Assembly (NCBI RefSeq): GCF_037975245.1
Contig: NC_092564.1
Span: 26,890,984 to 26,954,983 of the forward strand
Origin: Apostichopus japonicus
Lineage: Eukaryota > Echinodermata > Holothuroidea > Aspidochirotida > Stichopodidae
Length of the DNA stretch: 64,000 bases
Reading direction: 5' to 3'
Of this stretch, positions 1 to 64,000 are shown piece by piece. The first letter of the stretch is position 1. Every line of letters begins with the position of its first letter. The translations under genes and the position numbers were made by a program. The notes under the pieces are model-generated. The model searched no databases. It was not told where the DNA came from and saw only the letters and a program-made list of their open reading frames with translations.

Positions 1-3000
1 GAAGGTTTGTTTCATTGGTTGACTACAGCTTCTGTTTCGAAATGGTTCTTCGAAGGCATCGTCAAAAAGTGCCTCTTGGGATTTTGAGAGAGGTTGGAGA
101 GTTCTAGGGGGTTGAAGGGTCTCTGTTTCGACTTGTTCCTGAGGTTGCATTTTCTTTATTTCCACCTGCTCCAAGGGAACAGCAGCGCTAAAAATAGATG
201 GCGCTGTTTCCTCAGTTGGAGATGGGGAACTTATCTTCACATCTAGGCAGAGTTCTCCCTCTATCGATCCTTTCTTTTTCCTGGACTTCTTCATTTTCTT
301 CTTACTTCCAAGCCTAAGCGATCTAAATGAGAATTTCGATGGTGTCTCTGCTCCAGTTTGCACTGGGCTCACTCCATGATGTGACTGCCCTCTCTGCCTT
401 GGAAAGGTCATTACGTTTCGGTCGTCGTTGGCTTGCCTCTCTTCGGATTGGAGTTGCTCCCCAGCACGCAACGTGCTGCTGCCTCTGTCATATTCCGTCT
501 TCGTATCCACTTCAGTAAATTTAAGCCGGAAAGGTTCCGTCTCTAGTTCTAATTGCTTTGGACGAGTACTTTCAACGCCGTCTGTAGCGATTCCATTGGG
601 CACGTTCATAACAAGGTCCTCGTTTAATTCATGGCGCACTTCACCTCTTTCGACGTCTTTTCCATCCTGTGGCGGCGCTTCTTCATTATCAGTCATGGTC
701 TCTACATTTAATGCCGTGTAATTGTTATCTACAACATCTGTGTCCGTTCCTTCGGTTTTTGCCTGATGAGTAGGGTCTGTATCCCCCTCTTCTAGCACAG
801 CGTAAGCAGGTCCCTGCACCGCTGTGGTTGAGTCGCCGGAAGATAATTCAGTGTAGGACTTATTGATAGTTTGATAGTCTTTAACCATGACAAGAGAATT
901 GCTTCTCTTTGTATCCTTCTGGTATTTCTGAGAGAGCTGGTGTCCACTTTGGTTTTTGCCTTCGGTTGACGTGGTATCGTCTACTTGTGACACACCGAGA
1001 GTGGTTTTGGTTCTGTCCGTCTCAGGCAAGATGGGTTGATATGTCCCGACATCCATGGATGTTGAACCTACGTAAGAAAGACAAATATTTACATTAGCTT
1101 CATATTCAAGTTAACAGTGAATTTGTTGCGTCTTTCCCCACGCCCCCCCCCCCCTGTATGCTGTATGTCTCTGCTCTACACTCTATATAGTACTTTAATT
1201 TGAAACGTTCGCTTGAAGGACGAATTACGATCGGCACATAAATCTTTACCGGAACTAAGACAGCAAACCGAAGACTTGATCATAAAATGGACAGTCTACT
1301 ATACATGTTGCTTGTATACGGATGCCTATACTTACCTACTCCCATCCTTAGTGTTGGATGGTTTGGTGGCAATGCAGGTCCAACAGCTTGATAGACAGGT
1401 ATTTGATTCATTGGAAATCTAGCACAGGAAGAGAAAGGGGGGAATGATTAGTTTTATTAATTGAATTTAACCAGGACATACACAGCAAATAAACGTGAAG
1501 GAGAGCTGTTGGAGGTAACGAGATCCTATATGAAACAGGATATACTGGAATCACGTATGACATATACTGTTTGCATGGTCTCTCTTCAAAGACATTGATT
1601 ACTTGGATGAGAGGTAGCAATATAGTACCGTTAAGCCGACCATATACACAGCCCACACTGAAGTCGACCCAACGTCACAGACTTGAACAGTTAAACTCAG
1701 TGTGTTTATGGCTACAAATAATCAAGACTTAGCTAAGTTTCCGGAAGGCCGAACCAATATGTTGTGTCCGCTCAAATGGCATTTATCGATAGTCGTGCTG
1801 TGTGTGGGTGTGTGGTGTGTGTGTGTCGGCTAACGAGTACAACTGCATGTCCAATTTTAACGTAACCCGATCATAGGGAAATAATTTTGCATGTGACCTA
1901 AACGAGGACCCATCGTTAACAGAAGGAAAACAGTCGTACATTCCGCGTTAGTCACTCACTTTCAGTGGTGCGTTCAGCAGTCTTTCAGTGGTGCGTTCAG
2001 CAGTCTTTCAGTGGTGCGTTCAGCAGTCTTTCAGTGGTGCGTTCAACAGTCTTTCAGTGGTGCGTTCAACAGTCTTTCAGTGGTGCGTTCAACAGTCTTT
2101 CAGTGGTGCGTTCAGCAGTCTTTCAGTGTGTCTTTGAGTATTGTTTGTTTGGTTGCGTCTTTATCACTCTACTTCAACCCATGGAGGTAAAAACATAGTT
2201 TTTACCTCCATGTTCAACCGAGGCTTGTGGCGGTCGGTATCAGGCGCGTAGCCATGGGGGGGGGGGCGAAGGGGGACACCGCCCCTCCCCTTTAGTATAT
2301 TTTGTTTGTATGTTTTTATGATATCGCTAGTAATTTCAAGCTTAGATGCAACTTACAAGGCCTGGGAAGTGCCATTTCCAGCGATCTGGGAGGCATTTTT
2401 AGCCAAATTTTTCTTGTACGCGTAGCGCCAACTCATGGTGGCGATACACCTAGATACTTTTCAAGGCAGAATCTATGGCTCTGATAGTTTGCCTACAGGT
2501 TCGCCCCTCCCTAGACAAATTCCTGGCTATGCGCCTGGTCGGAATGCGTTGTATAGAAAGCACACACATAATTGAACTTACTCTTCAATGTAAGGGGACC
2601 TTAGGGCTCGTTTCCTCCGTCTTCGTCGGGTCAAGCACAAGCAGAATATCGCAACAAGTAGAGTAACAAGGAAAGCTCCAACCGCAACTCCGATAGCCAT
2701 AGCCAATGAATCTATCAGTTCTGGATAGTGGATAAGATTGAAGGAGAGATATTATAGAATGTTTATCTTTCTACATGTGAGTCCCCTCCTGCCCCCTCTA
2801 TATAAAAGTTCAGACCCTACCTAAATAAGTCAGGGGTGTGGGGAGGGGGGGGGGTAATCGCTCCATCCATCCCTCTTACACCTTCGCGAATCCTGTGCAC
2901 ACCACTGAATGAAGACAATGTTACAAACATGTAGTTATCGTTAAAGATATTCCCACACCACAAAAACAACAACAAGAAACACTCTGAAAACAAGTAGGTA

Positions 3001-6000
3001 AAGTGTCATGTAAGTGTTAACATGTTTACCACATCTACCAGTTTTTGTGTCAAATTAAAGCCCTTTCTTCAAAAATGAGGTTATAAGAATTTCTGGTTAA
3101 TAGTATACATTGCATGCTGAAAACTACATCGATACGGAAATTAACGGTCTAATTAAACTCTGTGGTGATTGCTTACTTAATTTTTCATTACCAAAGCCTG
3201 TCGTTGCATAACCTTCTGTCGTAAGGTATTGACCTTTCCTCTTCTGGAGTACCCCATCTACGTCTAAAGTACCAGAGATCATGTCGGTGGAGTCAAGTGG
3301 TGAGGGCGACGTATTCAATCCTATGGTGGAAGCCAATCTAAGGAGAAATTACAAATCAAATGAAATAATGGCATTATTTCAAAATAATTTAGAACTCCAG
3401 AATGTGTGATATTAACTGATGTTGCAAAAACCTACATGCATGTGATTTCGCAAAAGCCTGAAGGCATTCTGATGTCATGGGATACGAACAAAGTGAGGTT
3501 GGGCAGTTGATGTGGCGTCTTACTTTGACTGTTAAGACATCGGTATGGTTAGATTTTAAAATTATGATACATTATGGCCATCTATTTAAGTTTCAAAGCC
3601 CAAACTGACTGCTACGGATTACGGCGACAGTGTTGGATAAACTTAAGACGGGACGTGGGTATCTTTAAGATAAGGGTGCATAGACTTCTTACACAAGAAC
3701 CTTTTCTTTCTGGAGGAACGTAGGAGAGGACACGGTATATCATAGCCTAACGTAATAGTATTTGCGGCAAATAGTTTGGAGATATCAGGCGAAAGTTTAA
3801 TACCCTCGAGCTGAGGTCACGTCAATTGTGTCTATATGATGACGGTGAGATTTCATCTATAGGAATCGCCCAAAGACAGTGGAAGCACCCCTCCCCCAAT
3901 ACCTTGATATACAGTATAGATGGTTGTTGGTGTGGGGTTTGGGGGTTGGGGTGGGGGGAGGAGGGGCATATTGCAGGGGAGAATCATATCAGGAAGGTCA
4001 CTCTAAACGTTTACGAAGTTTGCTAACATTGTTAGAGAAAAAGTAGACAAGTCGTTTTTTGGTAATTATAACCAAATCAATAATATTTTGTTTTTATAAA
4101 AACATCTGCCAAGTTTTTCATCCGTGGGAGAAATGACCTATATGTATGTGTTTGGTAAAACAAAACTGCAGAATAGTGAAGAAAGCATCTTACGAAGGAG
4201 GCCATGCGCATTGTGAATATCCATGACCATAGCAGTAGTCCATTAATTCCATACAAGAGTCCTCCCAGCAGAGTTTCGTATGGTTCATCATTATCGGTTT
4301 ATCTTTACTGGAACCTGGACATTTGTTCCGTTTGGAATCTGATTTAACGTTGTCCCATATTATGCACCCAATTGAAGAATTGCATCTATACGAAACTGAA
4401 ACGGCAAAGAAAAAACCCACAATTGTGCTGGTGATAATAATTGAGCTAACAAACATACACCCACACACACACCCACCCACTCACACACATATGTGTTTTA
4501 CATTAAGACCGAGGACCCCATTATTATTTTTTTGGTTTCTTTTTTGTCAAATCCGCATATCCTAACCTTACAAATTCTCTTAACAATAGAAATCTTCTGA
4601 GAACGTATGGCAAGCCGATTTACTCTTTGTTTGATATTTGATGATCACAACAATTATTTGGTGATATCACGAATTCATTTGGTGATATCACCTATTAATT
4701 GCTGATATCATCAAATCATTTGATGATATCAGCAATTAATAGGTGATATCAACAAATATCGAATAAAAAGTAAAACAGCTTGCCATACGGACGTGGTGAT
4801 TCTTTTGAAATGTCATATGAGGCCTTGGAATTCCTTTGTCCAATTCAAGTCCTCATTCAAGTCCACATTCCAATTCAAGTCCACATTCAAATTCATAATA
4901 CAAAATAAGTACACACACGCACACAACCTTTTATTGACAACAAATATTGGGATAATAATGTCATGCAAACTTTTCCCCATCGATATATTAATACTCAAAT
5001 TTCGATCATGTTTCAGTCTGAATGAAGACATGGATGTTTCGTTAGTTGGTTTGTTGTGATTGAAATTTAGAAATCATTTATCCAAATCGGTGGGAGTCAC
5101 ATCTTACTCAAAATTTGTACGATATAGTATACTCGGCCGGATGTGATTTTGATCTACCATGTGTGGCGTAATAATGTTGTTGTATTTATTTTGTTTCCTT
5201 TTTCAAACTGATAACTACTGCAACAGTCTTGTGCACAAAGACGTATTTTCACGGCGATGGATAAGAAGCAGATAAACATCTGCTTCTTATTGCTATTTCC
5301 CCTTTATTCACGTTGATAGAATGACCTTAAAAAATATCATTCAAAATCAAACTAGAATCTATATTTGAATCTTCAGATACAACTAATAAAACAACTTTAA
5401 CTTCAGTTAAATAGAAACGTACATTTTATGTCGCTGTGCGATGTTAGTGAAACATTTTCATGTTGTTTGGCGAAAGGGACGGTGGAAGGGGGGGGGGGCA
5501 GCGTCTACTAGGCCACCAGTCGTTGTTATGATATTTACAGAGTTGTTTTTTTTTGTTTTTATTTTATTCATACCACGAGCGGATTCGAGCTGTTCATTAC
5601 AGGTGTCAAAAGGTGTAACACTCGATGTAGTCGATGAACAAACCTGGCGACAGGTTGCCCTGTAAATAACAAGTAATCAGAGAAAGAACAATGAGTAAAC
5701 CAAATTAAATTAGTTATTCTTAGGAATTAATTCTCATGCATAATAGATGTACGGATTAGAAAGAAAGGTGAAGTGGTAGGGTGAACTCATGAATGGATGA
5801 GAATCTAGGGAGGTTCATGTTTGCATGTCTGTTAGATGTGATAGTGCAGTCGTATGGTGAAGACATGTAGGTACATGTTGGTGATATCAAATCCAAGGTG
5901 TTTTTATCCTAGACTATTAACTGAGAGAATACAATATTAAATATGCATAACATTACATTCTGCATAAGCTTGTAACGTTGTATCGTTCAAGCGAAGCCGC

Positions 6001-6668
6001 GCAATTTTCCCACAGAATTATATATCCTATATGCGATTACAGTCCGTTGGGTTAACCCAAGAACTTGTCTCATGAAAATCGATGCAATACATTTACAAAC
6101 CCCATAACGCACCTCGTATATTTCCTTTGGTACCTCATATTTCGATACTTTACACAAGGAACCTCATATCTGTTTATAAGTAGATACCTCATATATTGTC
6201 TTTCATTAAAGGTACCCATATTTTCTCCTTTACATAAGGTATCTCATATGTTTCCTTTACATGAGGTATGACTCATATCTTTCCTTTACAAAAAGTTCCT
6301 CATTTCTTTCGTTTACATAAGGTACCTATTTCTTTCCTTTCATAAGGTACCTCACATCTTTCTCTTATGGGCCCTATAAGGTGTGTCTATTTCCTTCACA
6401 TAAGGTACCCCGTTTCAATGAGTTTGTCCAGATTGCTATAAATTTAGCTCGAAATGCAGATGTAACAGGTAGTTACCATACGTCATCTTAACAAAATTGT
6501 AATAATGAATATAATGGTAGGAATGGTCTCCAGAGGTTATTCTCACCAATCACAAATAACGTTAGGAGGGATACAGATTGACGGAAATGACGTCGTAGTT
6601 TGACCATGACTGATGACCCCGAAGACGGAAACTAGGAAAAAGAGAGTCAGCATCTTCGATGTTCCCAT
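1..6668 (-). CDS. single-pass receptor 1, Cys-rich ectodomain, tyrosine-motif tail (3' partial)
   Basis: Gene rebuilt from exons on the minus strand: 6668-6547, 5659-5574, 4395-4194, 3337-3177, 2720-2600 and 1067-1, the last running off the window. Borders are AG/GT and phases match at the first four junctions. Exon 1 starts at ATG 6668 and encodes a signal peptide (MGTSKMLTLFFLVSVFGVIS). Exons 1-3 give about 12 cysteines in about 110 residues; exon 4 is a Ser/Thr-rich stalk; exon 5 is a membrane helix (IDSLAMAIGVAVGAFLVTLL) followed by a run of Arg/Lys, the stop-transfer signal. The last exon is a long acidic tail with Tyr-x-x-Leu/Ile motifs: DYQTI, SYTEL, AYAVL and NYTAL. Exon 5 ends in phase 2 while the tail exon needs phase 1, so one small exon is missing. 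Receptor 2 has exactly such an exon (59 nt, phase 2 to 1). A weak candidate is 1254-1229. I do not recognise the ectodomain family. A signalling or adhesion receptor is inferred from the tail. Confidence 0.8.
1960..2130. repeat. short minisatellite, about 23-bp unit
   Basis: Seven to eight copies of a unit containing TTTCAGTGGTGCGTTCA in the intron before the tail exon of receptor 1. Each unit contains a TTTCAG, acceptor-like on the plus strand. Confidence 0.9.
2178..2211. repeat. short perfect hairpin
   Basis: CATGGAGGTAAAAAC faces its reverse complement with a very short loop. Confidence 0.7.
2241..2537. mobile_element. hAT-type MITE, family A copy 1
   Basis: Begins CAGGCGCGTAGCCA and ends TGGCTATGCGCCTG, and is flanked by GTCGGTAT / GTCGGAAT, an 8-bp target duplication with one change. 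It has no coding capacity. It lies in an intron of receptor 1, next to the membrane exon. The interior (GCCATTTCCAGCGATCTGGG region) is shared with the copies at 29483 and 39339. Confidence 0.9.
4605..4788. mobile_element. small palindromic GATATC element, copy 1
   Basis: Ends GTATGGCAAGC / GCTTGCCATAC. The interior is almost wholly palindromic, built from TGATATCA-type units around a centre near 4713. No clear target duplication. Same build as 16307-16774. Confidence 0.75.
5264..5290. repeat. short hairpin
   Basis: AAGAAGCAGAT and its reverse complement flank a few bases. Confidence 0.6.
6105..6400. repeat. degenerate repeat of GGTACCTCATATCTTTCCTTTACATAA type
   Basis: About ten imperfect units of 25-30 bp, each with an ACCTCATAT-like and a CCTTTACAT-like part, in the first intron of receptor 1. 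Confidence 0.75.
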
Positions 6669-7245
6669 CACAGCTTAATGTTTAGTGTTGGTTTCAGTTA
6701 AGCCTAATTTTTTCGCGTGACTGTAGGCGTATTGGAACAATGATGAGTTTGCCTGTTTTATTTCCTGGTGAGAAAAAAGTGCTGGAAAATTATTGTCTTT
6801 CCTGCTTGGATGAGTAACACAAGAAGACAAACAAAACAATGAAAAGTGAAATGAATTTGAATTCCAAATTCATGACTGTCACTTGACCCACAAGTCCAAC
6901 GTACTTTTTATATGGTAGCCACGGTATAGTAAATGGAAACGGGATTCCCCGGAATTAGGACCACATTTTCCCTTCTCATTACGTTTTCAATTATATATTC
7001 ATTTGCATTTGTCGTTTACCTCCATTTAATTAACAAAAGTCTGTTCAAAGTATCTCTTTCGAGATCCGGCTTTAGGAATCACAAATGACTTCGAGTTGGT
7101 TAGAATCATGTTTGATCTCTAGAGTAAGACAAATATGTCACCAAAACAGAACTAGTATTGTTCGATACAGGTGACAAACGCCTACAGTGAAATTACGACC
7201 TTCCTTACAGGTTTCGAACCTCTGGACATACAGTCAGCGTCTATA

Positions 7246-7310
7246 GCCTTTAGTGGTAAGGGTGTCCGCATATAAAGCGGGAGGCCCGGGTTCGAATCCC
7301 GGTGGAGGCT
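7246..7310 (+). tRNA. tRNA-like sequence, unit 1 (shortened D arm)
   Basis: Acceptor halves GCCTTTA and TGGAGGC pair, the anticodon stem TCCGC/GCGGG closes a 7-base loop, and the T arm CCGGG-TTCGAAT-CCCGG is perfect with a B-box. The D arm is about four bases short, so a working tRNA is doubtful; the loop would read ATA. Best viewed as a tRNA-derived pseudogene or SINE head. Copies: 7613-7677, 7980-8044 and 8332-8396. Confidence 0.5.
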
Positions 7311-7612
7311 GGAAGTTTTTTCACGGTTCTGGATTTTCCTTCTCATTACGTTTTCAATTATATATTCATTTGCCTTTGTCGTTTACCTCCATTTCATTAA
7401 TTAAAGTCTGTTCAAAGTATCTCTTTCGAGATCCGGCTTTAGGAATCACAAATGACTTCGAGTTGGTTAGAATCATGTTTGATCTCTAGAGTAAGACAAA
7501 TATGTCACCAAAACAGAACTAGTTTTGTTCGATACAGGTGACAAACGCCTACAGTGAAATTACGACCTTCCTTACAGGTTTCGAACCTCTGGACATACAA
7601 TCAGCGTCTATA

Positions 7613-7677
7613 GCCTTTAGTGGTAAGGGTGTCCGCATATAAAGCGGGAGGCCCGGGTTCGAATCCCGGTGGAGGCT
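7613..7677 (+). tRNA. tRNA-like sequence, unit 2
   Basis: Identical to unit 1 over the tRNA-like stretch. Confidence 0.5.
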
Positions 7678-7979
7678 GGAAGTTTTTTCACGGTTCTGGA
7701 TTTTCCTTCTCATTACGTTTTCAATTATATATTCATTTGCCTTTGTCGTTTACCTCCATTTCATTAATTAAAGTCTGTTCAAAGTATCTCTTTCGAGATC
7801 CGGCTTTAGGAATCACAAATGACTTCGAGTTGGTTAGAATCATGTTTGATCTCTAGAGTAAGACAAATATGTCACCAAAACAGAACTAGTTTTGTTCGAT
7901 ACAGGTGACAAACGCCTACAGTGAAATTACGACCTTCCTTACCGGTTTCGAACCTCTGGACATACAATCAGCGTCTATA

Positions 7980-8044
7980 GCCTTTAGTGGTAAGGGTGTC
8001 CGCATATAAAGCGGGAGGCCCGGGTTCGAATCCCGGTGGAGGCT
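7980..8044 (+). tRNA. tRNA-like sequence, unit 3
   Basis: Identical to unit 1 over the tRNA-like stretch. Confidence 0.5.
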
Positions 8045-8331
8045 GGAAGTTTTTTCACGGTTCTGGATTTTCCTTCTCATTACGTTTTCAATTATATATT
8101 CATTTGCCTTTGTCGTTTACCTCCATTCTGTTCAAAGTATCTCTTTCGAGATCCAGCTTTAGGAATCACAAATGACTTCGAGTTGGTTAGAATCATGTTT
8201 GATCTCTAGAGTATGGCAAATATGTCACCAAAACAGAACTAGTATTGTTTGATACAGGTGACAAACGCCTACAGTGAAATTACGACCTTCGTTACCGGTT
8301 CGAACCTCTGGACATACAGTCAGCGTCTATA

Positions 8332-8396
8332 GCCTTTAGTGGTAAGGGTGTCCGCATATAAAGCGGGAGGCCCGGGTTCGAAACCCGGTGGAGGCT
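8332..8396 (+). tRNA. tRNA-like sequence, unit 4
   Basis: As unit 1 but with the T loop changed to TTCGAAA. Confidence 0.45.
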
Positions 8397-8416
8397 GGAA
8401 GTTTTTTCACTGTCCT

Positions 8417-8474
<58 letters not shown>

Positions 8475-8478
<4 letters not shown>

Positions 8479-9775
8479 ACTTAGTGCGCGTCTTCAATAA
8501 TCTGCTAAGTCATGAATAGTGAGAAGAACTCATTAGCTATCTGACACGTTTGTTAAACTTGTGTTTGTTTTCGTCTAATATTACCTTGACCTGTCATCTA
8601 TAGTGAGAAGATATTTTTGCCATCAAAAATATATAATTAATACCACGTGGTATCCTGATAATAAGTTGGCAAACTTCCCCATTCTTGGTGCAACACAAAT
8701 GTGTCACACTTAGAAAATAATACATCTATATTATTACAATATACATTTCATATGTATATACAACATGTAATTGTCACTGATGACGATACTTCGTTCAACG
8801 AAAGCCGTTGGTTAAATTTGGTAGAACTGCTAAACAAGATAGGCCTAGGCATCAGTTGTAATAATTTAACATTTTAAAAAGTTAATTAAACATTAGTTAT
8901 CCCACCCCCCCCCCCCAATTATCGATTATAATGTAGCCTACGAAAGTCCATGCTTTGACCTATCAAATATAACCCATGCTAAACATACTCGACTGTATGG
9001 TAAATATTGTTCCTTATTCTCCCACTACGCGCATGCACACAATAGAAAACGAACAATACAAAACATTAGAATAAATGTAGAATATGTCAGTAAAACGAAT
9101 AGGATGTATATTTAAAAAAATATATACTCTAGAAATAACTAACCTTACCGTTGGTGGACATGAGCACCCTGCTGATAACAATCCTAGGTTATCCTAACTC
9201 CTGAACTTGTTGCACACCAGGAATTATTCCAGATAAACTAAATACTGCGTGTTGTCTATGCCAAGTTATAAGTCACTGGGCTGTATCCTGTTCAACAAAC
9301 GTGGCCTTTGCGTTACAAGTGATCGTAATAAATGAATGTGCAAGTTGCTGGCCCAACGGAAGTCAAATTTTCCTGTCTGTAGCGTTTTCCACCGAAAACA
9401 GTCCCTCAATTGGTATTAGATTAAGACGAATGAGAGAGTGTAGATGCACTCTGTGTTGGTGTACGCTTGCTTTATATAGTTAAGTAAGCACATGTGAATA
9501 GCACTAAACGCCTTCGCAGACCTTCAAACTTTTGGAGTGATTCCTACTCATTGTTTCCTATATACTCATATTTTGGTTGTAATTTAATTGTTTTTACGAC
9601 GTTTGATAGAGTAATATTTTAAAATGCTAGGTAAACATGAAATTTAATAAATGGTATTTTCTGTTTGGTGTTACATCCCTGAAGTTAAATTACTATGTCA
9701 CAAGTCGAAACATTTCATTGTAGGTCAGAAAAAGTAATTCAGTCTTTAGTGGCCGGTCGTTTCATTACAGGTTTA
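8475..9775. other. gene-free stretch
   Basis: AT-rich, with a C-run near 8905. No exon could be supported. Confidence 0.6.
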
Positions 9776-9779
9776 CTGC

Positions 9780-10915
9780 AAAAGAGAAGTGTAGCATTAC
9801 TGAGGCATTACTGTATAGGGAACTGAAGCATTATTGTACCAAGACTGTAGGGTAACTGTAGCATTATTGTACCATTACTGCAGGGTTACTGTATCATTAT
9901 TGTACCATTACTGTAGCATTATTGTACCATTACTGTGCAGTTACTGTACTGTAGTTTATTCTACCATTACTGAAGGGTTACTGAATCATTATTGTACCAT
10001 TACTGTAGGGTTACTGTATCATTATTGTGCCATTACTGTAGGGTAACTTCAGCATTATTGTACCAATACTGTAGGGTTACTGTATCATTGTTGTACCATT
10101 ACTGTAGCATTATTGTACCATTACTGTGCAGTTACTGTACTGTAGTTTATTCTACCATTACTGAAGGGTTACTGAATCATTATTGTACCATTACTGTAGG
10201 GTTACTGTATCATTATTGTACCATTACTGTAGGGTTACTGTAGCATTATTGTACCATTAATGTAGGGTTACTGTATCATTATTGTACCATTACTGTAGGG
10301 TTACTGTAGCATTATTGTACCATTACTGTAGGGTTACTGTAGCATTATTGTACCATTACTGTAGGGTTATTGTAGCATTGTTGTACCATTACTGTAGGAT
10401 TACTGTATCATCATTGTACCATTACTGTAGGGTTACTGTATCATTATTGTACCATTACTGTAGGGTTACTGTAGCATTGTTGTACCATTACTGTAGGGTT
10501 ACTGTATCATTGTTGTACCATTACTGTAGGGTTACTGTAGCATTGTTGTACCATTATTGTACCATTACTGTAGCATTATTGTACCATTACTGTAGGGTTA
10601 TTGTAGCATTGTTGTACCATTACTGTAGGGTTACTGTATCATCATTGTACCATTACTGAAGGATTACTGTAGCATTATTGTACCATTACTGTAGGATTAC
10701 TGTAGCATTGTTGTACTATAACTGTAAGGTTACTGTAGCATTGTTGTACTACAACTGTAGGGTTATTGTAGCATTGTTGTACTATTACTGTAGGGTTATT
10801 GTAGCATTGCTGTAGCATTGTTGTAATAGTACTGTAGGGATACTTTAGCATTATTATACCATTACCTTTCCGTTACTGCAGCGTTACTGTATCGCTACTC
10901 TAGTTACTGTAGCGT
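9780..10915. repeat. 1.1-kb minisatellite, about 33-bp unit
   Basis: Units combine CATTATTGTACCATTACTG and TAGGGTTACTGTAG parts, with point changes and a longer duplicated block (9880-10020 and 10070-10200). Long open frames here are repeat shadows. Confidence 0.95.
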
Positions 10916-11327
10916 AGCCTGGTACATTAGTTCAAATGCTTAGGGAATGTTCTCACCTGACGTCATCGATCGGTCATCATTCAACCCTTCTTAACACATA
11001 CAGACATGCTCCGTCAGTACTACAGGATGTTACTTAACTTCAAAGGCGTGTTAATCAATTTGTGACAGAGTCGAATAGAGTAGCCAGAAACATATTGAGA
11101 TTTGGCGATTGATGCATATCAGACCTAATCCATATCGCCTATTTAATATTATAATCCTGCCAACAATTAAATTACACAAACAAACTAATGAAGTTGTATG
11201 TCACACGTATTATTTGAACGTTATGAACACTACGATATATGTATGTATATTACGTTGCACAAAAGGTTCCTATGTAAATTTGTACTATCGTAACATTCCA
11301 ACTCGTTTCTTCGTTACGTTGTGTTAG

Positions 11328-11517
11328 AACCTCCAGCGGGAGTGGACAGTGGCTTGTCGTATAGTAATGGTATAGTAGTAATTCAAACTAAACATGATCG
11401 GAAAACCGAATTAAATATGTACGGTTACATTCGTCAGCTGGAACATGACCTAAATATTGAAATGTCCAAAAACCAGATCCAGGTCCGCAGCCTTGGATCT
11501 ATGCAAATACAAAATCA
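11328..11517 (+). CDS. possible upstream exon, perhaps of receptor 2
   Basis: An open 190-nt stretch sits between a pyrimidine-rich acceptor (ending GTGTTAG) and a GTACGT donor. It is in phase 1 to 2, so it would splice in frame to the exon at 17536. The peptide is polar and helix-like (for example HDLNIEMSKNQIQVRSLGSM) and has no cysteine. The opposite strand is also partly open, so coding is not certain. If it does belong to receptor 2, the intron would be 6 kb and would contain the GATATC element and the exon at 14419-14569 of the other strand. Confidence 0.3.
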
Positions 11518-11814
11518 GTACGTCTACATGTGCATATGTTGAAATATCCTATCACGAGTATATAGGCCTATACTGCTACTCAAAATTCGAGTCCCCAAAG
11601 TAGGATTCTATATATTTTAGTTTTTTTTGCAAGGATCTGTGAGTCGCATTAATGGGGTGTTGAGAGACCTCGCGGGTGGCAGGAAATGTATATGCTAACG
11701 TGATAATTATCATCGTAATAAACACAAGTGGTTGCTTTCGGTTGTATATGTGAACATGTTCTGTAAGACCATGCTGCTGATGGACTTACAGGTACAACGC
11801 AACCTCTGTGTTCA

Positions 11815-11935
11815 GCACCCTCCCCCTCCCTCCCTTCCCTCCCTCCCTCCATTCCTTCCTCCCTCCCTCCCTCCCTTCCCTCCCTCCCTTCCTCCCTCCC
11901 TTCCTCCCCCTCCCTCACTCCTTCCTTCCCCTCTC
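11815..11935. repeat. CCCT/CCTT low-complexity tract
   Basis: Pyrimidine-only CTCCCT-type repeat; no gene. Confidence 0.9.
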
Positions 11936-11939
11936 ATGG

Positions 11940-13715
11940 AAGCATCCTCACCAACTCCTTACCAACGAGAGAGTTTGTGATGCAGACGCTGTCCATCATA
12001 ATATTATGTTGTCCTTTGTCAAACGAGGTCATGTTTTGAATTTGGACCAACCTTACTAATTTAATTTCGAGGAGCTTGTTTAGTCACTAAGGGATTCGAT
12101 GTAATTTTTACCATCAAGGGATTCGATGTAATTATAGTGGTTATAATCTACGTACATGAAGAGGAAGTTTAATGGTTAGAGGCATCTGTAATGAACGTTA
12201 GTCAAGGGACGGACTCATGATTTAAAGCTGTGTAGGTGGATTTCCCTCCTTTGAAAGGCGCCCTTCTTAATTAGGCGTTATTTTAGAGGGCGTTTCAAAC
12301 CTGTCACTCGGCATATTGGTTTCACCCTTTATAATACTTAACGCCTAACCGTTTGTCAATGGAGTCATATAGCGGAAAGGAAAAGAGTGAGGCGTCCTTC
12401 TTATACTCACGTTTCTAAAAACATTTCAATCTCGATGCGGATATCAAAATCGACCTAACTACTGCACGAACATTCATAACATTTGAGTTGGCAAGCACAA
12501 TTGGATGATGCTGATGTGGTTAAATTGGGGCAGGGGGGGGGAGGGGTGGGAGGTAGTGCTACTAGATATATGTAATTGATCAAGCTCCCCATTGTTTATC
12601 GGGCATGAAGAGGAAGTCAAATGGCTGCCGAGTTGTGTCACTGGTTGTCCTTTTCAGCACTGTTGTAAACAAGTATACATGAACCGGGGAGAGCAAAATG
12701 TCTGCCTACCCGCACATGATTTTTAAACACGATATTTGAACCTACGAGATAGTAATTTGTAGTGTTCAAATACATTGTCAATGTTAATCTCTTTTCCTTC
12801 ATTCGAGTCGTCATAGATAAGGCACTATATATATTTTATTGAGACTTTTTCAAACGGGGAACTGTGACGCGTTTACGTGTAAAGCAAGGAAGTCTCTGTA
12901 ACTAGGTATTTCCTTGCAGTCATAACCATGTACTATACATCACAAGGTGTTAACGAAAGGTTAGGTGTACAATCGATATAGCAGTTTGTAGGCACCACTT
13001 TCTCTCTTCGAGTCCCTGTGTATTTCATATACACAAGCGGTAACATCATCTCAATATATACGGAGGGTCGATTTAACTGTCCCTCGTTAATATCGTCTGC
13101 TAAACCATATTACGTATTTGGCCTATTCGAGAATAATATATAGCGAATGTCATGTCACTATATCACTTGCCTATAGCTTAGAAAATTTCCAGTTTCAAAC
13201 AGTGAAACAAAAATGATAACTTTTTTTTTTAGTTTCCGATTTGCATTTTCGATATGAATATGAATGATGTACTCTGGGGAAACTGTCTATAGTCGCATAG
13301 AAAGGAATGAAATGATCGATTGGTTCCCTATATAAGCAATGTTCATTTGAGTTTCAGTAAGTCTCTGATCATTTTAAAATGAGTATTGTGAGTAACTCTC
13401 GGTATCTTTGGTAACATTCTTATCCTGCTTGATTGCATGGAAATTTTTGTTTTTGAAATTTTATTGAACGAATTCTAAGAAACCCCACACATTGTTAAGT
13501 CCATTCCATCCCACCCCACTCCACTCAACCCCATTTTAACGCCAAATAAATTTTCAATAGGCAAATTTTGTCATTTAATGTTCTAAGACAAAAATGAAAA
13601 AAATGAAAAAATAGTGAATACAATTAACGTGAAGGAATATAACTTTTCACTTCAGCAGCAAGATTTACAATTAATATAAGGTTACACTTTATATCCCTTG
13701 TTACTCATATTCACC
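11940..13715. other. gene-free stretch
   Basis: Nothing recognisable apart from a short direct duplication (AAGGGATTCGATGTAATT at about 12089 and 12117). Confidence 0.55.
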
Positions 13716-13806
13716 GGTCCTGTGGCCGAGTGGATAAAGGCGGTGGCATTTGAAGCAATATGGCTTAGCAATCGGGAGGTTCGGGGTTCAAATCCCGGCC
13801 GGGTCA
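13716..13806 (+). tRNA. tRNA-Ser-like pseudogene or SINE head
   Basis: Starts GGTCCTG and ends CCGGGTC (6 of 7 pairs), has a good D stem (GCC/GGC), a long variable region as in Ser/Leu tRNAs, and a perfect T loop (GGTTCAAATCC). The anticodon loop ATTTGAA would read TGA (Ser), but the anticodon stem pairs poorly. Likely tRNA-derived rather than active. Confidence 0.5.
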
Positions 13807-14418
13807 AAATATACGGTGGGTTAGAGCAATCTACGGTTTTCCCATCGGAAATGAACTTTCTAAATTGAAAAGATTCCAATTTTAAGTTAAAATGTTGAAT
13901 TGGAAGCCATCCGACGTGTAAGTTGTAATCTAATCCATAAGCCGTTGCGGGTTTCTCTCACATTTTTGTTCGCTTAAGCGTCGTAAAAACAACTGCTGCT
14001 GAGTATTATTATTATTATTTAGGCCTGATATACATACAACGGTTATGCATTTTTTTTCATATAGACCTTCAAAACTTCCTATATAGTAGTCCCATAGGCG
14101 CGCCATTCGTAAGCAATTCGGTCTTCCAAGTGAAAACACGCTCTCTTTGTCGAAATTAATTAAGAGCAAACGCAGTAACATAGCAGTGTCTATTATTCAC
14201 CAAGTTTATTAGTCACATAGAAACCCCTTACAGGACATAAATTTGGTTCTGATTCCATCTTTAAGAAAAGTTTAAAAAAAGACGAAAAAGAAAAAAAAAA
14301 GAAATGAAAAGAAAAAGAAACCCCGTATGTTAGCGGCTCTATACTTCCTACGTAATCACGAGTTCTAATATTGTTGAATTTATGTTAACTATCCTTATTT
14401 GCAAGGTTGATGACATAC

Positions 14419-14569
14419 CAAAATGTTTTGAACAAGCCACACAAACCAGAAATAAAAACACACTAAGAAAGCAAGCTAACAACACAACAATCAAAGAATA
14501 CACCTCGACGTTGGTGACTTCCTCGGTCACAGAAATTCTCAATTGCCTGCCTTCCTGTTTATCAGTCAT
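14419..14569 (-). CDS. candidate first coding exon, N-terminal membrane anchor
   Basis: ATG at 14569 opens a 151-nt frame ending at a good donor (GTATGT), phase 1. It encodes about 24 polar residues, then one strong hydrophobic segment (LIVVLLACFLSVFLFLVCVA) followed by CSKHF. The layout suits a single-pass protein with a short N-terminal cytoplasmic part, or a long signal anchor. No downstream exon was recognised between here and 11 kb, so the gene is unidentified. It could also be chance. Confidence 0.35.
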
Positions 14570-14599
14570 GACGTCAAGACGGAAAGGGCGCCCTCGATA

Positions 14600-16300
14600 G
14601 TAATTTGTACGCCTTAGCTTACTTGAGTTCCATTTCGACTCCAGGTGAAAACGCGGACTGACATATACTTAAGAGGACGGAATTTGTTAATATTTGCTCA
14701 AAAAAAGAGATTTTTTGTTGATTTGTTGTCGTTGCTATTGTTATTGTTATTTATGGGAAGGAATGTATTGAGCTGCTATTGTGTATTAGGGATACGTACA
14801 CATAAATATGAGGAATGTTTATTTCAACGAGCGATATAGATGGAATTTTTATCTGGTGGGAATTCTATACCTACATTTAACGGTAGCAAAGGACGCGTGT
14901 GATAAGTAAGTTATGTTTCATGAGTTCATTCTTAATCACTTTATACGATAGGAATTAGTTTATTATCGGTATAGCCTATACCGCCCAATATATACACTAT
15001 AGCAAGTACATATACATTCAATGTGCATTTATGTGCATGTGTATACATACAGCGTGTACTGTACAAAGAATAAATGACTGTATAGAGGTAGTGTTTTGAA
15101 TTACAGCAGTTTAATTCATATCCAGATTAATATTTCGGAACCACCTGGTTCCTCTCTCAAATTTCAAGTGAAGCAGCGAACGTAAAGTATTACCTTTTGA
15201 AAAGTTACTGTTCTAATAAATTACATACGCTTACAACATTTAAGTGTATAAAATGCAGTGAATACGCGTGAGCGCGTAATCCACGCGCAATCCGGCGTAA
15301 ACGTTTGTATATAAACTCAGTCGTTTACTTACAAATTCCACACTAATCCGTGAACATTGTCATTGTTTTATCGACATTTTTTGCTTCAAAATTTCGGCTT
15401 TTTGTCAATATATCAAAAGAAAAAAAAAAAGAATTCGCAAAAAGTAAAAGAAAACGAAAACAGTTTTATGACTTTATTGCCTGGCTAACTAAAACATCCA
15501 ATTAACTGATTTAGCACTGCCGTGTAGTGCTTCCTTTCATTGAAAAATTGAGGGGGTAGATGCCTCTGCCCTCGTAACACACACGCACACACTGACACTT
15601 TGAAAATTGGGCCGGGGAGGGGGAACCCCTCCTTCGTTAGTGCACCTATATGTCGACTACAGTATTGGTTCATTTGATTTACTACGATGCTCAATTCATT
15701 AGCTTTTCTAGAAGAAACATGAAATGTTAGGAAGAGTGGCAGTTGATACGTGTCGTATATGGAGTGACCATTATTTGACTTTGTAGCATATTTGCGGTCA
15801 ATTACTTATGATCTTTAAATGGGCTGTTTCTCTATGAGTATAGTGTAGTACATTATATTGTATGCTACTGCATAACGATGGTATAGGAGAATATACGGTA
15901 GGCCTTAAAACCTAAGCAGCCTGGGAATTTGAACAAGTCACAACACTTAAATTTGTTCAGATAAGGTGTTTTTAAATGATCGAGTTTACCAAGCCGGATG
16001 TAAAACAGTCTAAGAAACATTCTGCCTTCCGGTTATTATGCCATTCCTCAACTCCTTTGTTCCATGTTACTGAACTCTCTTTGCGGTGACTTAATTGACT
16101 TTAAAATCGACGAGTATAATATTCCGGATTATCTTACTTCATTACGGTAACCATTTTAACGGAAGTCGTCTATTGGGGTAAATTAATCCTCTAAAATGTT
16201 TAGCAAGATACAGAAAACAATATAGTCTCCACTGCAGTCGCTTTGTGTAGTTTCCGATAGCAACTTCTTCAAATTCAGAATTATGCTCCAACCCAATAGC
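14600..16300. other. gene-free stretch
   Basis: AT-rich, no supported exon or repeat family. Confidence 0.5.
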
Positions 16301-16306
16301 CCGCCC

Positions 16307-16774
16307 GTATGGAAAGCCATTTTAACATTTAATCGGGAATTTTAGATATCTGAAATTGTTTCTTATTTCAGATATCTGAAATTGAATTCGAGATATCTAA
16401 AATAGATTTCGAGATATCTAGAATTCTAATTCATATATCTGAAATTAAATTCGAGATATCTTAAATTGAATTCGAGATATCTAAAATAGATTTCGAGATA
16501 TCTGAAATTCTAATTCAGATATCTGAAATTCAATTCGAGATATCTGAAATTGAATTCGAGATATCTGAAATTGAATTCGAGATATCTCGAATTCAATTTC
16601 AGATATCTGAAATTCCCTGGTATTTCGAGATATCTGAAATTGATTTTAAGATATCTGCAATTATTTGTAGATATCTGAAATAAATTGTAGATATCTGTAA
16701 TTTAATTTGAGATATCTGAAATTATTTCGAGATATCTGAAATTCCTTATTAAATGTTAAAACGGCTTTCCATAC
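16307..16774. mobile_element. palindromic GATATC element, copy 2
   Basis: Ends GTATGGAAAGCC / GGCTTTCCATAC with longer matching ends through ATTTTAACATTTAAT, flanked by an exact 8-bp duplication GCCCGCCC (16299-16306 and 16775-16782). The interior is about 20 units of AGATATCTGAAATT and its complement in both orientations. No coding capacity. Confidence 0.93.
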
Positions 16775-16984
16775 GCCCGCCCGACCCCTGATCAACACGC
16801 ACAACAACCCTTGCTTTCTGGGTCGTGGTTACAAAATCACATACACCTCACAAGGGTGATGATGATACAGTCGTGGAGGTTGTGGGACGAACATCCATAA
16901 TTTTCATCAGCTAAGTCAATTTTGCTGTGTAGGAACACATATGAAGATACTATCGTTGTGTAGACTCAGCCGCATTGAGCGATC

Positions 16985-17115
16985 TCAGACGATGTTGCAT
17001 ACTCACTGCATGGGGGTAGTCACTGCATGGGGGTAGTCACTACATGGGGGTAGTCACTACATGGGGGTAGTGACTACATGGGGGTAGTCACTGCATGGGG
17101 GTAGTCACTGCATGG
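16985..17115. repeat. minisatellite, 18-bp unit
   Basis: About seven copies of CACTGCATGGGGGTAGT-type units. Confidence 0.9.
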
Positions 17116-17535
17116 GGCACAGTAGATGTATCGAGAATAGCCAATGTATGGGGTGGGGATACCCTCTTATGGGGGTACACACTATCTGGGAATACACACT
17201 GTATAGGTATCCACTGAACGTGAGATAATTACTGTGTGTAGGGGGGGGGTGGGAATTCTGACTGTTTAATCCGTAGAGTTAGAATGCTTCTAAGATGTTG
17301 GTTCCTCCATTAATGTGGCCGACGGGGAGATTTTTACTTAGTTTCCTTTTTAGGTTGCTTTGGTTGGAAATGTCAGTTTGATGTGATAATACAGGTAGAC
17401 CTCGGTCAAGTGTGAGTGGGTAAAATGATTTCCGCGAGAATGAGATTCATTTCCTTGTTATTGTTTGTTATAATTTCCTTGCTGTTTTAGTTGTGGTTTT
17501 AATTGATGTTTTCTGATTGTGTTATTGTTTCCCAG

Positions 17536-19580
17536 GTACAAAAATGAACCGGAATCCGCTTGGCCGAGTTTGCCCAAATATTGCAGAGAGTATTTGCAGA
17601 ACCAGATTAAAAACCCTGGCAAATATTGTAAGTGTTTATTCATTGAATCTATCCATGGGCCTCTATGGGTACTTATATGGGGGAGGGGGGTATACATGAT
17701 TATCTATGGGTATACATTGGCATCTATAGGTAGACGTGGGCATCTATGGGTATACATGGGCATATGTGGGTATTCATGGGCATCTATGGTATATATGGGC
17801 ATTTATGGGTATATATGGTTAATGGTTATACATGGTTATCTGGTGGAGAATGTGGAACCGTCGGACCAGCTTGTGTGCTTGTTTGGTGTCAGTTACGTAA
17901 TATAAAACTTGCCAGGTCAGGTATACAGTAAGTCTATGGTAGGAAACGGATATGGTTTAGGCCGGTCATGTTGGGAGGACCATGAGGGGTAAACGTCCCT
18001 GTTTGCTATGTGCTGAGAATTGATTACCACGTTTCACCGTTGCGAAGTTGATTGGCCTATAAACAACATTTACGAAGTTGGTTTAAAGTGTGATCATTTA
18101 CAAATTTGTGTATTTTACGTTGAAATTACAACTTTTTGGGCTTACTCTAACCAAGTCGTGAAACATTGAGGCAGAAGAATTTGGATACCTCCAAGTGTTA
18201 TCAAGAAATCTATTTGCTACAATTTAGATTGCCCTCATTATTTTATCAACCATTTATATGAACACAAAAAAATTTTGGGAAAATATTATATAAATTAGGC
18301 AAAACTACAACTGTAGTCAGTTCCTTGTTACGTCAAAAGTTGACGACTTTAGGACTCGGTGCTTGACACTGTTTTAAATATCTATTCCGACGGCATTTGA
18401 ATTCGTTTGTACAAGCCATGCATTTTTTTCCTCGATGCGCGTATCATTGTCATCTTCACTTTTAGTTCCAGCAGACACTGCGACACAGAGTACCGTGACG
18501 TCGGGTAGTGAGCCGCCGTTAAATTTTGGCGAAAGGGAGGTAGAAATTGAGATCGAGACCGAGGGAAAGAACAAACAGAAAGAGAAGGATTCTGAGATGG
18601 AATTGGAGATCCAAAGCGAATCTGACTACGAGATGGATCTGGAGTGTCTCGGAAAGGCCTGTCAGAAAGGTATTAGTACCGTACTCCACTTGTATAATGT
18701 AAAAGGAACGTATACCCCCCCCCACCCCCTCCCCCAGTCATGACGAATAAATCTGCTTTACAGCTTGTACATGTGTGGTTCATTGACAGTTATTTCAACC
18801 TATTTAACATCGTGTAATTTTAACGCTGATTATGTCGTCTATACATAAAAAAATATATATATGATGAAGTCAACATTGGCAAAGGAAGCTGTTGGTTAGA
18901 CTTGGATTTGAACCATCCAGTAGGATGGACGGAATGCAATGATTCAGAACGGGAAACCGCAAGCCTCATCCGACAAATAGTTTCGGGTGGCGGCTAGTAG
19001 TGTTAGCAAAGTAAACTGACCGTTGTTGTACGTCACCGTTAATGCACTGGCGTGTAGCAATGGTGGTTTAAGTTGAATAATGTGTAAACCTTTGCACTTT
19101 CGTGTTTTGTGATAAATGTGGCTGTGCATGGCCACAACCATGTGTCACAGTAGCGAGTGTGTTGTAAAAGATCGGTTACGTACTGGATCCCGCGGCGTTA
19201 TCATTTCGGTACATAAGTTGTCCCATCATGGCATCACACATTACCTATCTCCATACAACTACTGCACTCTCATTTACGATATGTTCTTTTCATGTAAATA
19301 ACAATAATAACTTTCACTTCTTTCTATTTATTTATTTACTATTATTATTCAGACGGTAAAAGTGAATCGGGCCAAACCGACCGAGGAAGTCCGTCTTCCC
19401 GTTTACATCTTGAATTATTACGAACAATCGCGGTTCTTTGTATGACAGCCGTAGCCGTTTTGACGATTATCGTTCTGGCCACAGCAATATTCTGTGTCCT
19501 TAAAAGAAGAGAAAATAGAAGAAACAATCAGGAGGAAAGGTAAATATAGGTTTATTCATATTATTTGCATTATTTGTATT

Positions 19581-19678
<98 letters not shown>

Positions 19679-20837
19679 TATATTATATTATATTTATATA
19701 TATATATATATATACACATACATATAAATGTATATATATGTATATATATATAGATATTTATCTTCCTCTTAGTGGCGGTTGGGTCAACCAACCGGCAAGA
19801 GAAACATGGATGAAACTAATGCACCTAAATTACATTTTCAAGTTTTGTTTCTAGAAATAGCAACAGCAGTTAGTGTTATACAGTAACTGAAAAGTAATAG
19901 AAACTGATAGCAAATTGTTCACAAGGTTTTTGTGTGTGTTCTTTCTGCTCCTACAGGAAAGACCTTGGTAGAAGACATATGGGTGGACACCGGGGTTACC
20001 ATGGTGAAAACAAAGGTAAGTAACTCACGATAACTTTTAAATATCGTACGCACCAGTAAATTGATCACTAGACTACTGTTATTCCAGTTAGTAAGGATGG
20101 TGATACAGTTACTTTCGGGGGGGGGGGGTGTTAGGGGCGGGTAATGATGGGGATAGTTACATTCGGGGGGGTGTTAGGGGCGGGTAAGGATGGAGATACA
20201 GTTACATTCGGGGGGGGGGGGTGTTAGGGGCGGGTAAGGATGGAGATAGTTACATTGGGGGGGGGGGGGGTGTTAGGGGCGATAAGGATGGAGATACAGT
20301 TACGTTCAGACGGATATTTTTCCTCTTTACTGTCTCCTTATCTGAACAGGGTCCCCATCAATCGGTAATATACCAATCAACCAATCACAGAACAACGAGC
20401 CAGAGCCAGGTGGCCTGCAGCAAAGGCAGTTGGCTGAGTATCACGAGGCCACCCCTGTTTCTAGCAGACGTCATAGTCCTGCAGTGATGGCCGCGCCTCC
20501 ACGGGGCGAACCGGAATACAGCCTCGTCGTCGAGACACAATATGCGTCTATTGACGATGACGTTATAGCCTCAGGAACAGCGAAAGGGCATTATTACTTC
20601 AAACTCGACAGTGAAGCATCGAAATTTTCACAACAAAGTGATCGCTCTGCACCCAACAGCCAGCCTTCGGATTCATCAGCACGGACATTGCTTCCTCCCA
20701 GCACACCCTCCCGTGAGTCACCTTTGAGCGGGTCGTTAACAAATTCGCAGTACGACCACCTAGACCACAGTGGTAACCATCGGACGCCAACCGTTGCTAC
20801 AGGCGGCACGTGTTATGACGTATTAGACCTTAAATAG
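17536..20837 (+). CDS. single-pass receptor 2 with ITSM/ITIM-like cytoplasmic tail (5' end not resolved)
   Basis: Exons with matching phases: 17536-17627, 18475-18669, 19353-19539, 19957-20015 and 20350-20837 (stop TAG). Exon 1 of this set carries one Cys; exon 2 is very acidic, with repeated Glu and Ser, and ends with two Cys. The third encodes the membrane helix ([20 protein letters not shown]) followed by KRRENRR. The fourth is a 59-nt Gly/His/Arg-rich exon. The last is a 162-codon tail with EYSLV, TQYASI (fits the ITSM pattern T-x-Y-x-x-V/I), YYFKL, SQYDHL (fits ITIM S/I/V/L-x-Y-x-x-L/V/I) and CYDVL close to the end. Such motifs bind SH2 proteins when phosphorylated in known immune receptors; that role here is inference. 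A polyadenylation signal AATAAA lies at 21136. The signal-peptide exon was not found; a possible upstream exon at 11328-11517 has a compatible phase. Exon phases around the membrane exon equal those of receptor 1. Confidence 0.8.
17640..17840. repeat. minisatellite, CATCTATGGGTATACATGGG type
   Basis: Degenerate units in the intron after 17627; the overlapping open frames on the plus strand are repeat shadows beyond the exon. Confidence 0.85.
19583..19752. repeat. TA microsatellite
   Basis: Long alternating TA tract just downstream of the membrane exon of receptor 2. Confidence 0.98.
20090..20305. repeat. G-rich tandem repeat, about 55-bp unit
   Basis: Four units of the form GGATGGAGATACAGTTACATT followed by a run of 8-12 G and TGTTAGGGGCG, just before the tail exon of receptor 2. 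Confidence 0.92.
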
Positions 20838-31890: not shown

Positions 31891-32911
31891 AGGTTAATGA
31901 GCATGGTTAACACAAAGAGATGGATGAAAGGACATTAGTAAACAGGGGAGGGGGGAGAGGAAATCAACAGGGGAAGAGGAGAGGCAGGAGATAAACAGTG
32001 GAGGGACAATGGGAGGATTAAGGGAAGGGGAGAGGTTATAAACTGGAGAAGGACAAAGACAGAAAGGTGTGGAGGAAAAGGGGTGGAAGAGCGTTATGAG
32101 AAGAGAAGTGAAGGGGGGGGGGGGGAACAAGGGGAGCTGGAGGGGGAACAGAAGAAAAGTTAGTCATGTCCTTCCTGAATGTTGAGCCCATGAGGTTGAA
32201 TGGTGTGAAGGCGTTGCATCCACAGCCTCTCTCTGCTGATTGGTACTATATAGGTCAGGGCGGCTACCTTAGGATTCAATCCCCTGTAGGGACATGTCGT
32301 TAATGGTATGGTTGGGAAGGTTAAAGTGTTCTCCAACTTGGGTCTCAGTCTTCATGGTGTTGACTGTGGATCTGTGACCATAGAATCGCTTCTTGAGGCA
32401 GATAGGTTAATGAGCATGGTTAACACAAAGAGATGGATGAAAGGGCATTAGTAAACAGGGGAGGGGGGAGAGGAAATCAACAGGGGAAGAGGAGAGGCAG
32501 GAGATAAACAGTGGAGGGACAAAGGAAGGATTAAGGGAAGGGGAGAGGTTATAAACTGGAGAAGGACAAAGACAGAAAGGTGTGGAGGAAAGGGGGTGGA
32601 AGAGAGTTATGAGAAGAGGAGTGAAGGGGGGGGGGAACAAGGGGAGCTGGAGGGGGAAACAGAAGAAAAGTTTGTCATGTCCTTCCTGAATGTTGAGCCC
32701 ATGAGGTTGAATGGTGCGAAGGCGTTGCATCCACAGCCTCTCTCTGCTGATTGGTACTATATAGGTCAGGACGGCTACCTAAGGATTCAATCCCCTGTAG
32801 GGACATGTCGTTAATGGTATGGTTGGGAAGGTTAAAGTGTTCTCCAACTGGGGTCTCAGTCTTCATGGTGTTGACTGTGGATCTGTGACCATAGAATCGC
32901 TTCTTGAGGGT
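31891..32911. repeat. direct repeat (pseudo-LTR) of the Penelope-like element
   Basis: Copies at 31891-32398 and 32404-32911 are over 95 percent alike by eye, offset 513 bp. Both end at CTTCTTGAGG inside the GIY-YIG coding part. Confidence 0.9.
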
Positions 32912-63462: not shown

Positions 63463-64000
63463 TTATTTTATTGCAACTAATTGCAACCCCTTGATGTCCG
63501 GGTGGGAGAGTGTTCCCCGTCTCTGGGACAGTAGGTGGGGCGTGTCCGGTAGGCTCGCTGGGACGCCCATGAGGAGCTGGGGGATCTCCGCGAACCAGGG
63601 TCTGCGAGGCCAGAACGGGGCTATTAGGATAAACCTGCCCTTGGAGTTCAGTATCTTCCTGAGAACCTGCCCGATCATGCAACGCGGTGGGAAGACGTAG
63701 GCCTCCAGGTGGTCCCATGGGAGAGACATGGCGTCTGTGTGATAGGCCTGGGGATGGAACCGTCTGGAACAGAAGGTCTGGATTTTGCTGTTCGTGTTTG
63801 TTGCGAACAGATCTATTATTGGCTTGCCAAAGATGGAGAAGATCCTGTTGCAATTTTTCTGTTCCAGCGTCCATTCGTTGGGATTTATATGTCCCCTGGA
63901 CATGGCGTCTGCCATCACGTTGAGCTTGCCCGCAATGTGGGAAGCTCGTAGGATCATACCGGAGTCCTCGGCCGCTGTTAGCACCTCCCACACTAACCAG
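63463..64000 (-). mobile_element. DIRS-like retrotransposon, C-terminal RT/RNase H frame, runs off the window
   Basis: A 177-codon open frame with HIAGKLNVMADAMSRG (end of the RNase H domain), then KPIIDLFATNTNSKIQTFCS and FHPQAYHTDAMSLPWDHLEA, then FILIAPFWPRRPWF, ending in TAA at 63463. This order is typical of DIRS-class polyproteins. No tyrosine recombinase frame follows on the left, so the copy may be cut. The frame has no break within the window. Confidence 0.85.

Follow-up and report, generated by a model that had tools for sequence, protein, structure and literature searches.

Two single-pass receptor genes stand head to head in the genome of the sea cucumber Apostichopus japonicus, and the question they raise is whether they are the two halves of an inverted duplication or neighbors of separate origin. 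They lie in 64 kb of animal DNA (GC 39%; hereafter the window), which a search of the animal's own genome (671.6 Mb, 35 contigs) placed at C4:26890984-26954983, on contig NC_092564.1. One gene, R1, is on the minus strand and the other, R2, on the plus strand, with start codons 8 kb apart; the opposite-facing receptors of the original prediction were thus borne out by spliceable open frames. A third gene, R0, lies on R1's strand in the left flank outside the window (C4:26886880-26877798). We consider it probable, on sequence grounds, that R1 and R0 are tandem paralogues encoding type I receptors, that R2, also a single-pass receptor, shares their 3' exon design, and that all three would work through tyrosine phosphorylation and SH2 docking.

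R1 consists of seven exons with gt/ag sites and a single open frame throughout, its intron phases being 2,1,2,1,2,1. The 652-residue product has an ectodomain with 12 Cys in 172 residues and three N-glycosylation sequons, and the last base of its stop codon lies 99 bases beyond the left edge of the window (C4:26890885). The exons are as follows, in window positions.

6547..6668, minus strand: R1 exon 1, holding the signal peptide MGTSKMLTLFFLVSVFGVISHG and the first part of the ectodomain, recognized by its ATG, hydrophobic core and donor gtgaga; it ends with Cys-Asp and then a split Trp codon (phase 2).
5574..5659, minus strand: R1 exon 2, Cys-rich ectodomain, phase 2 in and 1 out, supported by splice sites and frame; aligned with R0 exon 2.
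4194..4395, minus strand: R1 exon 3, Cys-rich ectodomain with CWEDSCMELMDYC, phase 1 in and 2 out, supported by splice sites and frame.
3177..3337, minus strand: R1 exon 4, membrane-proximal stalk, phase 2 in and 1 out; length and phases are those of R0 exon 4.
2582..2720, minus strand: R1 exon 5, encoding the membrane span along with a basic stop-transfer sequence, phase 1 in and 2 out.
1336..1418, minus strand: R1 exon 6, 83 nt with PVYQAVGPALP, phase 2 in and 1 out, gt/ag sites.
1..1067, minus strand: R1 exon 7 (last), cytoplasmic tail with Y-x-x-hydrophobic (YxxPhi) motifs, entered in phase 1 and continuing past the window edge.

The sixth of these exons had been deduced beforehand from phase counting alone, and was found where the frame called for it, at 1418-1336.

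The closest relative of R1 proved to be its same-strand neighbor. R0 encodes 811 residues, and its intron phases (2,1,2,1,2,1) are identical to those of R1. All of its exons lie on R1's strand.

C4:26886880-26886750, R1's strand: R0 exon 1, ending Cys-Gly and a split Trp codon.
C4:26885471-26885368, R1's strand: R0 exon 2, aligned with R1 exon 2.
C4:26883105-26882889, R1's strand: R0 exon 3.
C4:26882577-26882417, R1's strand: R0 exon 4, 161 nt, as in R1 exon 4.
C4:26881697-26881550, R1's strand: R0 exon 5.
C4:26881099-26881023, R1's strand: R0 exon 6, short exon with PVYASIGPELP.
C4:26879395-26877798, R1's strand: R0 exon 7 (last), tail.

BLASTP joined the two products in two blocks, from the ectodomain to the short exon (expectation value, E, 3.5e-11) and in the C-terminal part (E 1.5e-11). 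In a separate alignment of the two, identity is 27% over 618 aligned positions. Ten cysteines align between them; CWEDSCMELMDYC of R1 exon 3 is aligned with CWDQSQCMDLVNFC of R0, and the short exons align as PVYxx(I/V)GPxLP. Shuffled sequences never scored as well as the real ones for the ectodomain (0/5000) or the short exon (0/5000), and did so 2066 times in 5000 for the transmembrane exon. Both products have a signal peptide, an ectodomain rich in Cys, a stalk and a single membrane span, and both end in a long tail with several Yxx[LIV] sites. Judged by this similarity and by the identical phases, R1 and R0 are tandem same-strand paralogues, and R1's demonstrable sister is therefore a direct tandem copy and not R2. 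The expectation of a duplicated, strongly diverged pair holds to the extent that R1 does have a paralogue, strongly diverged in ectodomain and tail; R2 as the partner is a possibility taken up below.

R2 has the phases 2,1,1,2,1 and a product of 375 residues, both counted with a candidate first exon.

14808..14905, plus strand: R2 exon 1 (candidate), signal peptide, ending Cys-Asp and a split codon (phase 2), donor gtaagt.
17536..17627, plus strand: R2 exon 2, phase 2 in and 1 out.
18466..18669, plus strand: R2 exon 3, acidic to mixed-charge ectodomain, phase 1 in and 1 out, with a weak donor gtatta (score -1.1).
19353..19539, plus strand: R2 exon 4, transmembrane exon, phase 1 in and 2 out.
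19957..20015, plus strand: R2 exon 5, 59 nt, phase 2 in and 1 out.
20350..20837, plus strand: R2 exon 6 (last), tail with YSLV, YASI, YFKL, YDHL and YDVL and the stop codon, entered in phase 1.

Exon 2 is entered in phase 2 and so requires a coding exon upstream, which was sought in 6700-17535 among ATG exons ending in phase 2. Of 12 candidate rows a single one, 14808-14905, was strongly hydrophobic. With cut-offs placed just below the candidate's own scores, a first-order Markov model (30 simulations) gave a chance expectation of 0.37 such candidates per 10.8 kb, and for that reason we regard the exon as plausible, short of proof; its Cys-Asp-split-codon end, which matches the first exon of R1, favors it, and on the sequence it is likely the signal-peptide exon of R2. 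Another source of the signal peptide, an open reading frame at 17425 adjoining exon 2, was rejected for its poor donors and an intron of 52-79 nt: its phase-2 donors at 17457, 17463 and 17484 score -6.5, -5.9 and -11.5, against -1.1 to 7.9 for the other R2 donors.

The match in layout between R1 and R2 was confirmed from the membrane onward, with a membrane exon of phase 1 in and 2 out in both, then a short exon of phase 2 in and 1 out, and finally a long exon entered in phase 1. The forecast contrast between a Cys-rich and a very acidic ectodomain stands for R1 and needs softening for R2, whose 127-residue ectodomain (4 Cys) is acidic but of mixed charge, with 27 D/E against 17 K/R.

What the shared layout means can be read in two main ways. 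The first, to which we give not quite an even chance, is that R2 is an unrelated receptor and that the layouts agree since many receptor genes have a phase-1 intron ahead of the membrane exon and a tail divided among exons. Sequence comparisons speak for it. BLASTP of R2 reached only E 0.16 against R1 and 2.4 against R0, where the same tests find R0-R1 easily; for R0 and R2, shuffled sequences were as good in 3292 of 5000 trials for the ectodomain and 4936 of 5000 for the short exon. Aligned exon by exon with R1 and R0, R2 stayed at the level of shuffles, the membrane span being weakly alike, and DNA similarity between the R1 and R2 regions at E <0.05 was confined to short palindromic repeat arrays. 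Searching the animal's own genome turned up no further relative of R2. The three membrane-side phases alone would match by chance with a probability of 0.023 to 0.076 under assumed phase frequencies. Against an unrelated R2 stand the first two introns, which match as well, the Cys-Asp junction, which rests on the candidate exon 1, and the shared neighborhood.

The second reading is that of the original prediction, in which an old inverted duplication gave rise to R2 as a paralogue of R0/R1, since strongly diverged. Kinship by layout, with common ancestry, is a possibility that we hold tentatively, at somewhat less than even. All five R2 introns fit the R0/R1 order 2,1,2,1,2,1 with one intron removed, a match with a chance of 0.0017 (generic) to 0.010 (phase-1-rich) under assumed phase frequencies, and the first exons of R0, R1 and R2 all end with Cys, Asp or Gly, and a split codon. 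Phase 1 is the commonest intron phase in signal-peptide proteins, as far as the consulted part of that study goes (PMC1626468), and a phase-2 first intron in all three genes is for this reason somewhat telling. R2 also adjoins R0/R1 and is alike in general make-up. The membrane exon adds a little: for R0 and R2, 229 of 5000 region-preserving shuffles were as good (nominally <5%), and a profile comparison of R0/R1 with R2 gave E 0.0012 but a probability of 19%, over 15 membrane-span columns. For R1 and R2, the similarity of this exon, unmatched in 1000 plain shuffles, was discarded, as it faded once hydrophobic and charged stretches were shuffled separately (471 and 481 of 5000 as good). Resemblance in this exon is in any case a poor guide here, because the true pair R0-R1 scores 2066/5000 in the same test. 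The inverted-duplicate reading keeps the shared layout (5/5 R2 introns), while BLAST, exon-by-exon and ectodomain comparisons show no similarity.

The tails carry the several Y-x-x-hydrophobic motifs that had been expected, and at frequencies above chance. Yxx[LIV] sites account for 14/20 tail tyrosines in R0 (p = 1.7e-8), 7/11 in R1 (p = 3.6e-4) and 5/8 in R2 (p = 1.2e-3), in binomial tests against each tail's own composition with all tail tyrosines counted, and position +3 is the most LIV-rich among the eight offsets counted in all three tails alike. The pattern for an immunoreceptor tyrosine-based activation motif (ITAM; YxxL/I x6-12 YxxL/I) has four matching stretches in R0 and none in the R1 and R2 tails, and the R2 tail holds one TxYxxI switch-type motif. 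The R0 tail also has a run of similar motifs (YMEL, YMGI, YMGL, YLGI, YMGL, YVGL), which suggests internal duplication.

Several observations weigh against reading these genes as receptor paralogues with phosphotyrosine tails. The Cys count of the R0 ectodomain is odd (13). Only 2/5 Tyr/Tyr columns of the R0-R1 alignment are YxxPhi in both, namely the one in PVYxx(I/V)GPxLP of the short exon and DYETI/EYAEI near the C-terminus, so that most tail sites are not kept in position. Strict immunoreceptor tyrosine-based inhibitory motifs (ITIMs; [ILVS]xYxx[ILV]) are scarce, with two in R0, none in R1 and one in R2. YxxPhi is, in addition, the AP-2 sorting consensus. It is accordingly conceivable, and in our view unlikely, that the YxxPhi sites serve chiefly as AP-2 endocytic signals of scavenger or uptake receptors and not as SH2 docking sites, a reading that fits the rarity of strict ITIMs and sits poorly with R0, whose 14 sites, with 14-22 residues between successive ones in 7/13 intervals, would exceed what sorting signals need. 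More improbable still is a single ancient recognition locus of unnamed kind, formed by R0, R1 and R2 and with a new Cys-rich ectodomain family, whose members would have retained a fixed exon-phase frame and their phosphotyrosine scaffold even as nearly all of the ectodomain and tail was exchanged; R2 would be the acidic partner, facing the opposite way.

Under the preferred reading of phosphotyrosine-docking receptors, ligand binding or clustering of the ectodomain would lead a Src-family kinase to phosphorylate the tail tyrosines, which could then dock SH2-domain proteins such as kinases, phosphatases and adaptors; R0, with its 14 sites, could be a multi-site scaffold. A sea star egg transcriptome is reported to contain Src-family kinases and Syk, in the part of that work drawn on here (PMC11593052). 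Surface expression and ligand recognition of R0, R1 and R2 are inferred from their sequences, and an immune role would follow by analogy.

No named family could be assigned, in agreement with the initial view. Pfam gave no match that reached its cut-off for any of R1, R2 (less exon 1) and R0, whether of Ig (immunoglobulin), CTLD (C-type lectin-like), LRR (leucine-rich repeat) or EGF type or any other, and NCBIfam gave none for the R1 ectodomain or R2. Below the Pfam cut-off, RCR, Corona_NS4 and TM_ErbB1 for R1, and DUF5305 (E 0.0026), SARAF (E 0.0082) and three weaker matches for R2, were set aside. Among PDB sequences no match was credible: the best one of the R1 ectodomain was a G-protein beta chain (E 0.03), that of R2 had E 0.92, the window part of the R1 tail had none, and the R0/R1 profile reached E 0.12, to a membrane segment.

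Searches for further relatives within the genome were similarly sparse. The R1 ectodomain recovered its own four exons, repeats on contig C12 and one weak match on C13, and missed R0; R0 recovered its own seven exons, the last exon of R1 and one match on C1 (E 9.69), and missed the R1 ectodomain. A larger family is possible, because such searches can miss relatives as diverged as R0 is from R1. The C12 matches were dismissed as several copies of a repeat with stops, and the weak matches on C13 and C14 (E 4.58 and 0.235) went unsupported when each locus was searched alone. The C1 match, which contains one stop, is probably due to chance, with 34.5% identity over 55 positions and E 8e-5 when just that 3.2-kb locus was searched. 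A second copy of the last R2 exon was not found in the animal's own genome, and tblastn of R0, R1 and R2 over C4:26811000-26870999 (E up to 1; rows of >97% identity omitted and, for the R0 query, flank pieces L002 and L003) gave no further gene of this kind. Pattern matches in viral contigs to the last exon of R2 (17) and to exon 3 of R1 (4) were likewise dropped, none being confirmed.

Comparable receptors are found in several animals; CEACAM ectodomains are of Ig type, and the tails of Hydractinia Alr1/Alr2 carry tyrosine motifs. The following likenesses are taken from the sections of each report available to us. Amphioxus BbLcLRR, like R0, R1 and R2 a non-vertebrate receptor with tail tyrosine motifs, is an Lck-associated inhibitory receptor with ITIM or ITIM-like motifs; tests in human Jurkat T cells showed its association with SHIP1 and, to a lesser degree, SHP1/2, and its ITIM-like tyrosines matter for the inhibitory effect there (PMC8211107). 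Its ectodomain is made of LRRs, in contrast to R0, R1 and R2, which lack a Pfam domain and whose motifs are mostly non-strict (PMC8211107). The Xenopus FcR-like (XFL) paired receptors resemble R0/R1 in being clustered, and their tails carry one to three YxxL/I/V motifs on exons separate from the membrane exon; they differ in their Ig domains and in number, with at least 75 gene models (PMC2413239), compared with the two related genes found here by searches of limited sensitivity. CEACAM1-related receptors likewise place short cytoplasmic exons with tyrosine motifs after the membrane exon, but the first YxxL of their ITAM is interrupted by a phase-0 intron (PMC2110893), an arrangement not seen in R0, R1 or R2. 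Among invertebrates, Hydractinia Alr1/Alr2 are self-recognition (allorecognition) genes in a genomic complex, and oyster CgIgIT2 is a transmembrane receptor with a tyrosine-based motif, differing in its five Ig domains and classic ITAM (PMC11999971). The non-vertebrate tyrosine-tail receptors in these cited examples have Ig or LRR ectodomains (PMC8211107, PMC11999971). None of the matches listed by an open-licence literature search for such receptors in echinoderms or invertebrates (titles and abstract openings, few terms) names these genes.

Repeats surround the receptor genes. A 33-bp minisatellite of about 31 copies (9790-10819) lies between the start exons of R1 and R2, and four 367-bp tandem units (6965-8420) lie directly upstream of R1 exon 1, each carrying a tRNA-like fold (ARAGORN Tyr, anticodon ata; Rfam tRNA 42-45 bits); a stretch resembling the tRNA-like end of these units was seen by eye in left-flank piece L002 near 6310. 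Short palindromic GATATC-centred repeat arrays occur near both genes (4636-4757 and 16363-16743).

Farther out, the plus-strand APC (adenomatous polyposis coli) gene (C4:26827916-26836089), about 42 kb from R0, offers a good synteny anchor: its armadillo frame (C4:26827916-26829343) matches PDB APC chains at E ~3e-71, and the next frame holds four APC repeats and two SAMP motifs. Between APC and R0 is a plus-strand open frame of 1261 codons (C4:26860855-26864637), for 1212 residues of which there was no Pfam or PDB match. Within the window, a five-exon plus-strand gene (23542-28526) encodes a small, secreted-looking protein with a signal peptide followed by about five Cys; its product had no Pfam or credible PDB match, and a guess that it is an ML/MD-2 protein was abandoned for want of a Pfam match. 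At 31900-32930, inside a mobile-element region with a GIY-YIG fragment (Pfam), a stretch of about 500 bp occurs twice in tandem (by eye). On the minus strand lie an intron-rich major-facilitator transporter (about 40426-61012), whose closest PDB sequence is an oxalate:formate antiporter (E 9e-23), and an open frame at 63463-64000 with no significant Pfam match, which we take to resemble a retroelement RNase H region.

In vertebrates, immune inhibition and activation center on single-pass receptors with tyrosine tails. The R0/R1 pair, in which the Cys-rich ectodomain is unclassified and a tail has as many as 14 potential docking sites, would offer a compact system for questions about how such tails evolve, and R2, if it proves related, would be a clear case of exon phase outlasting sequence similarity.

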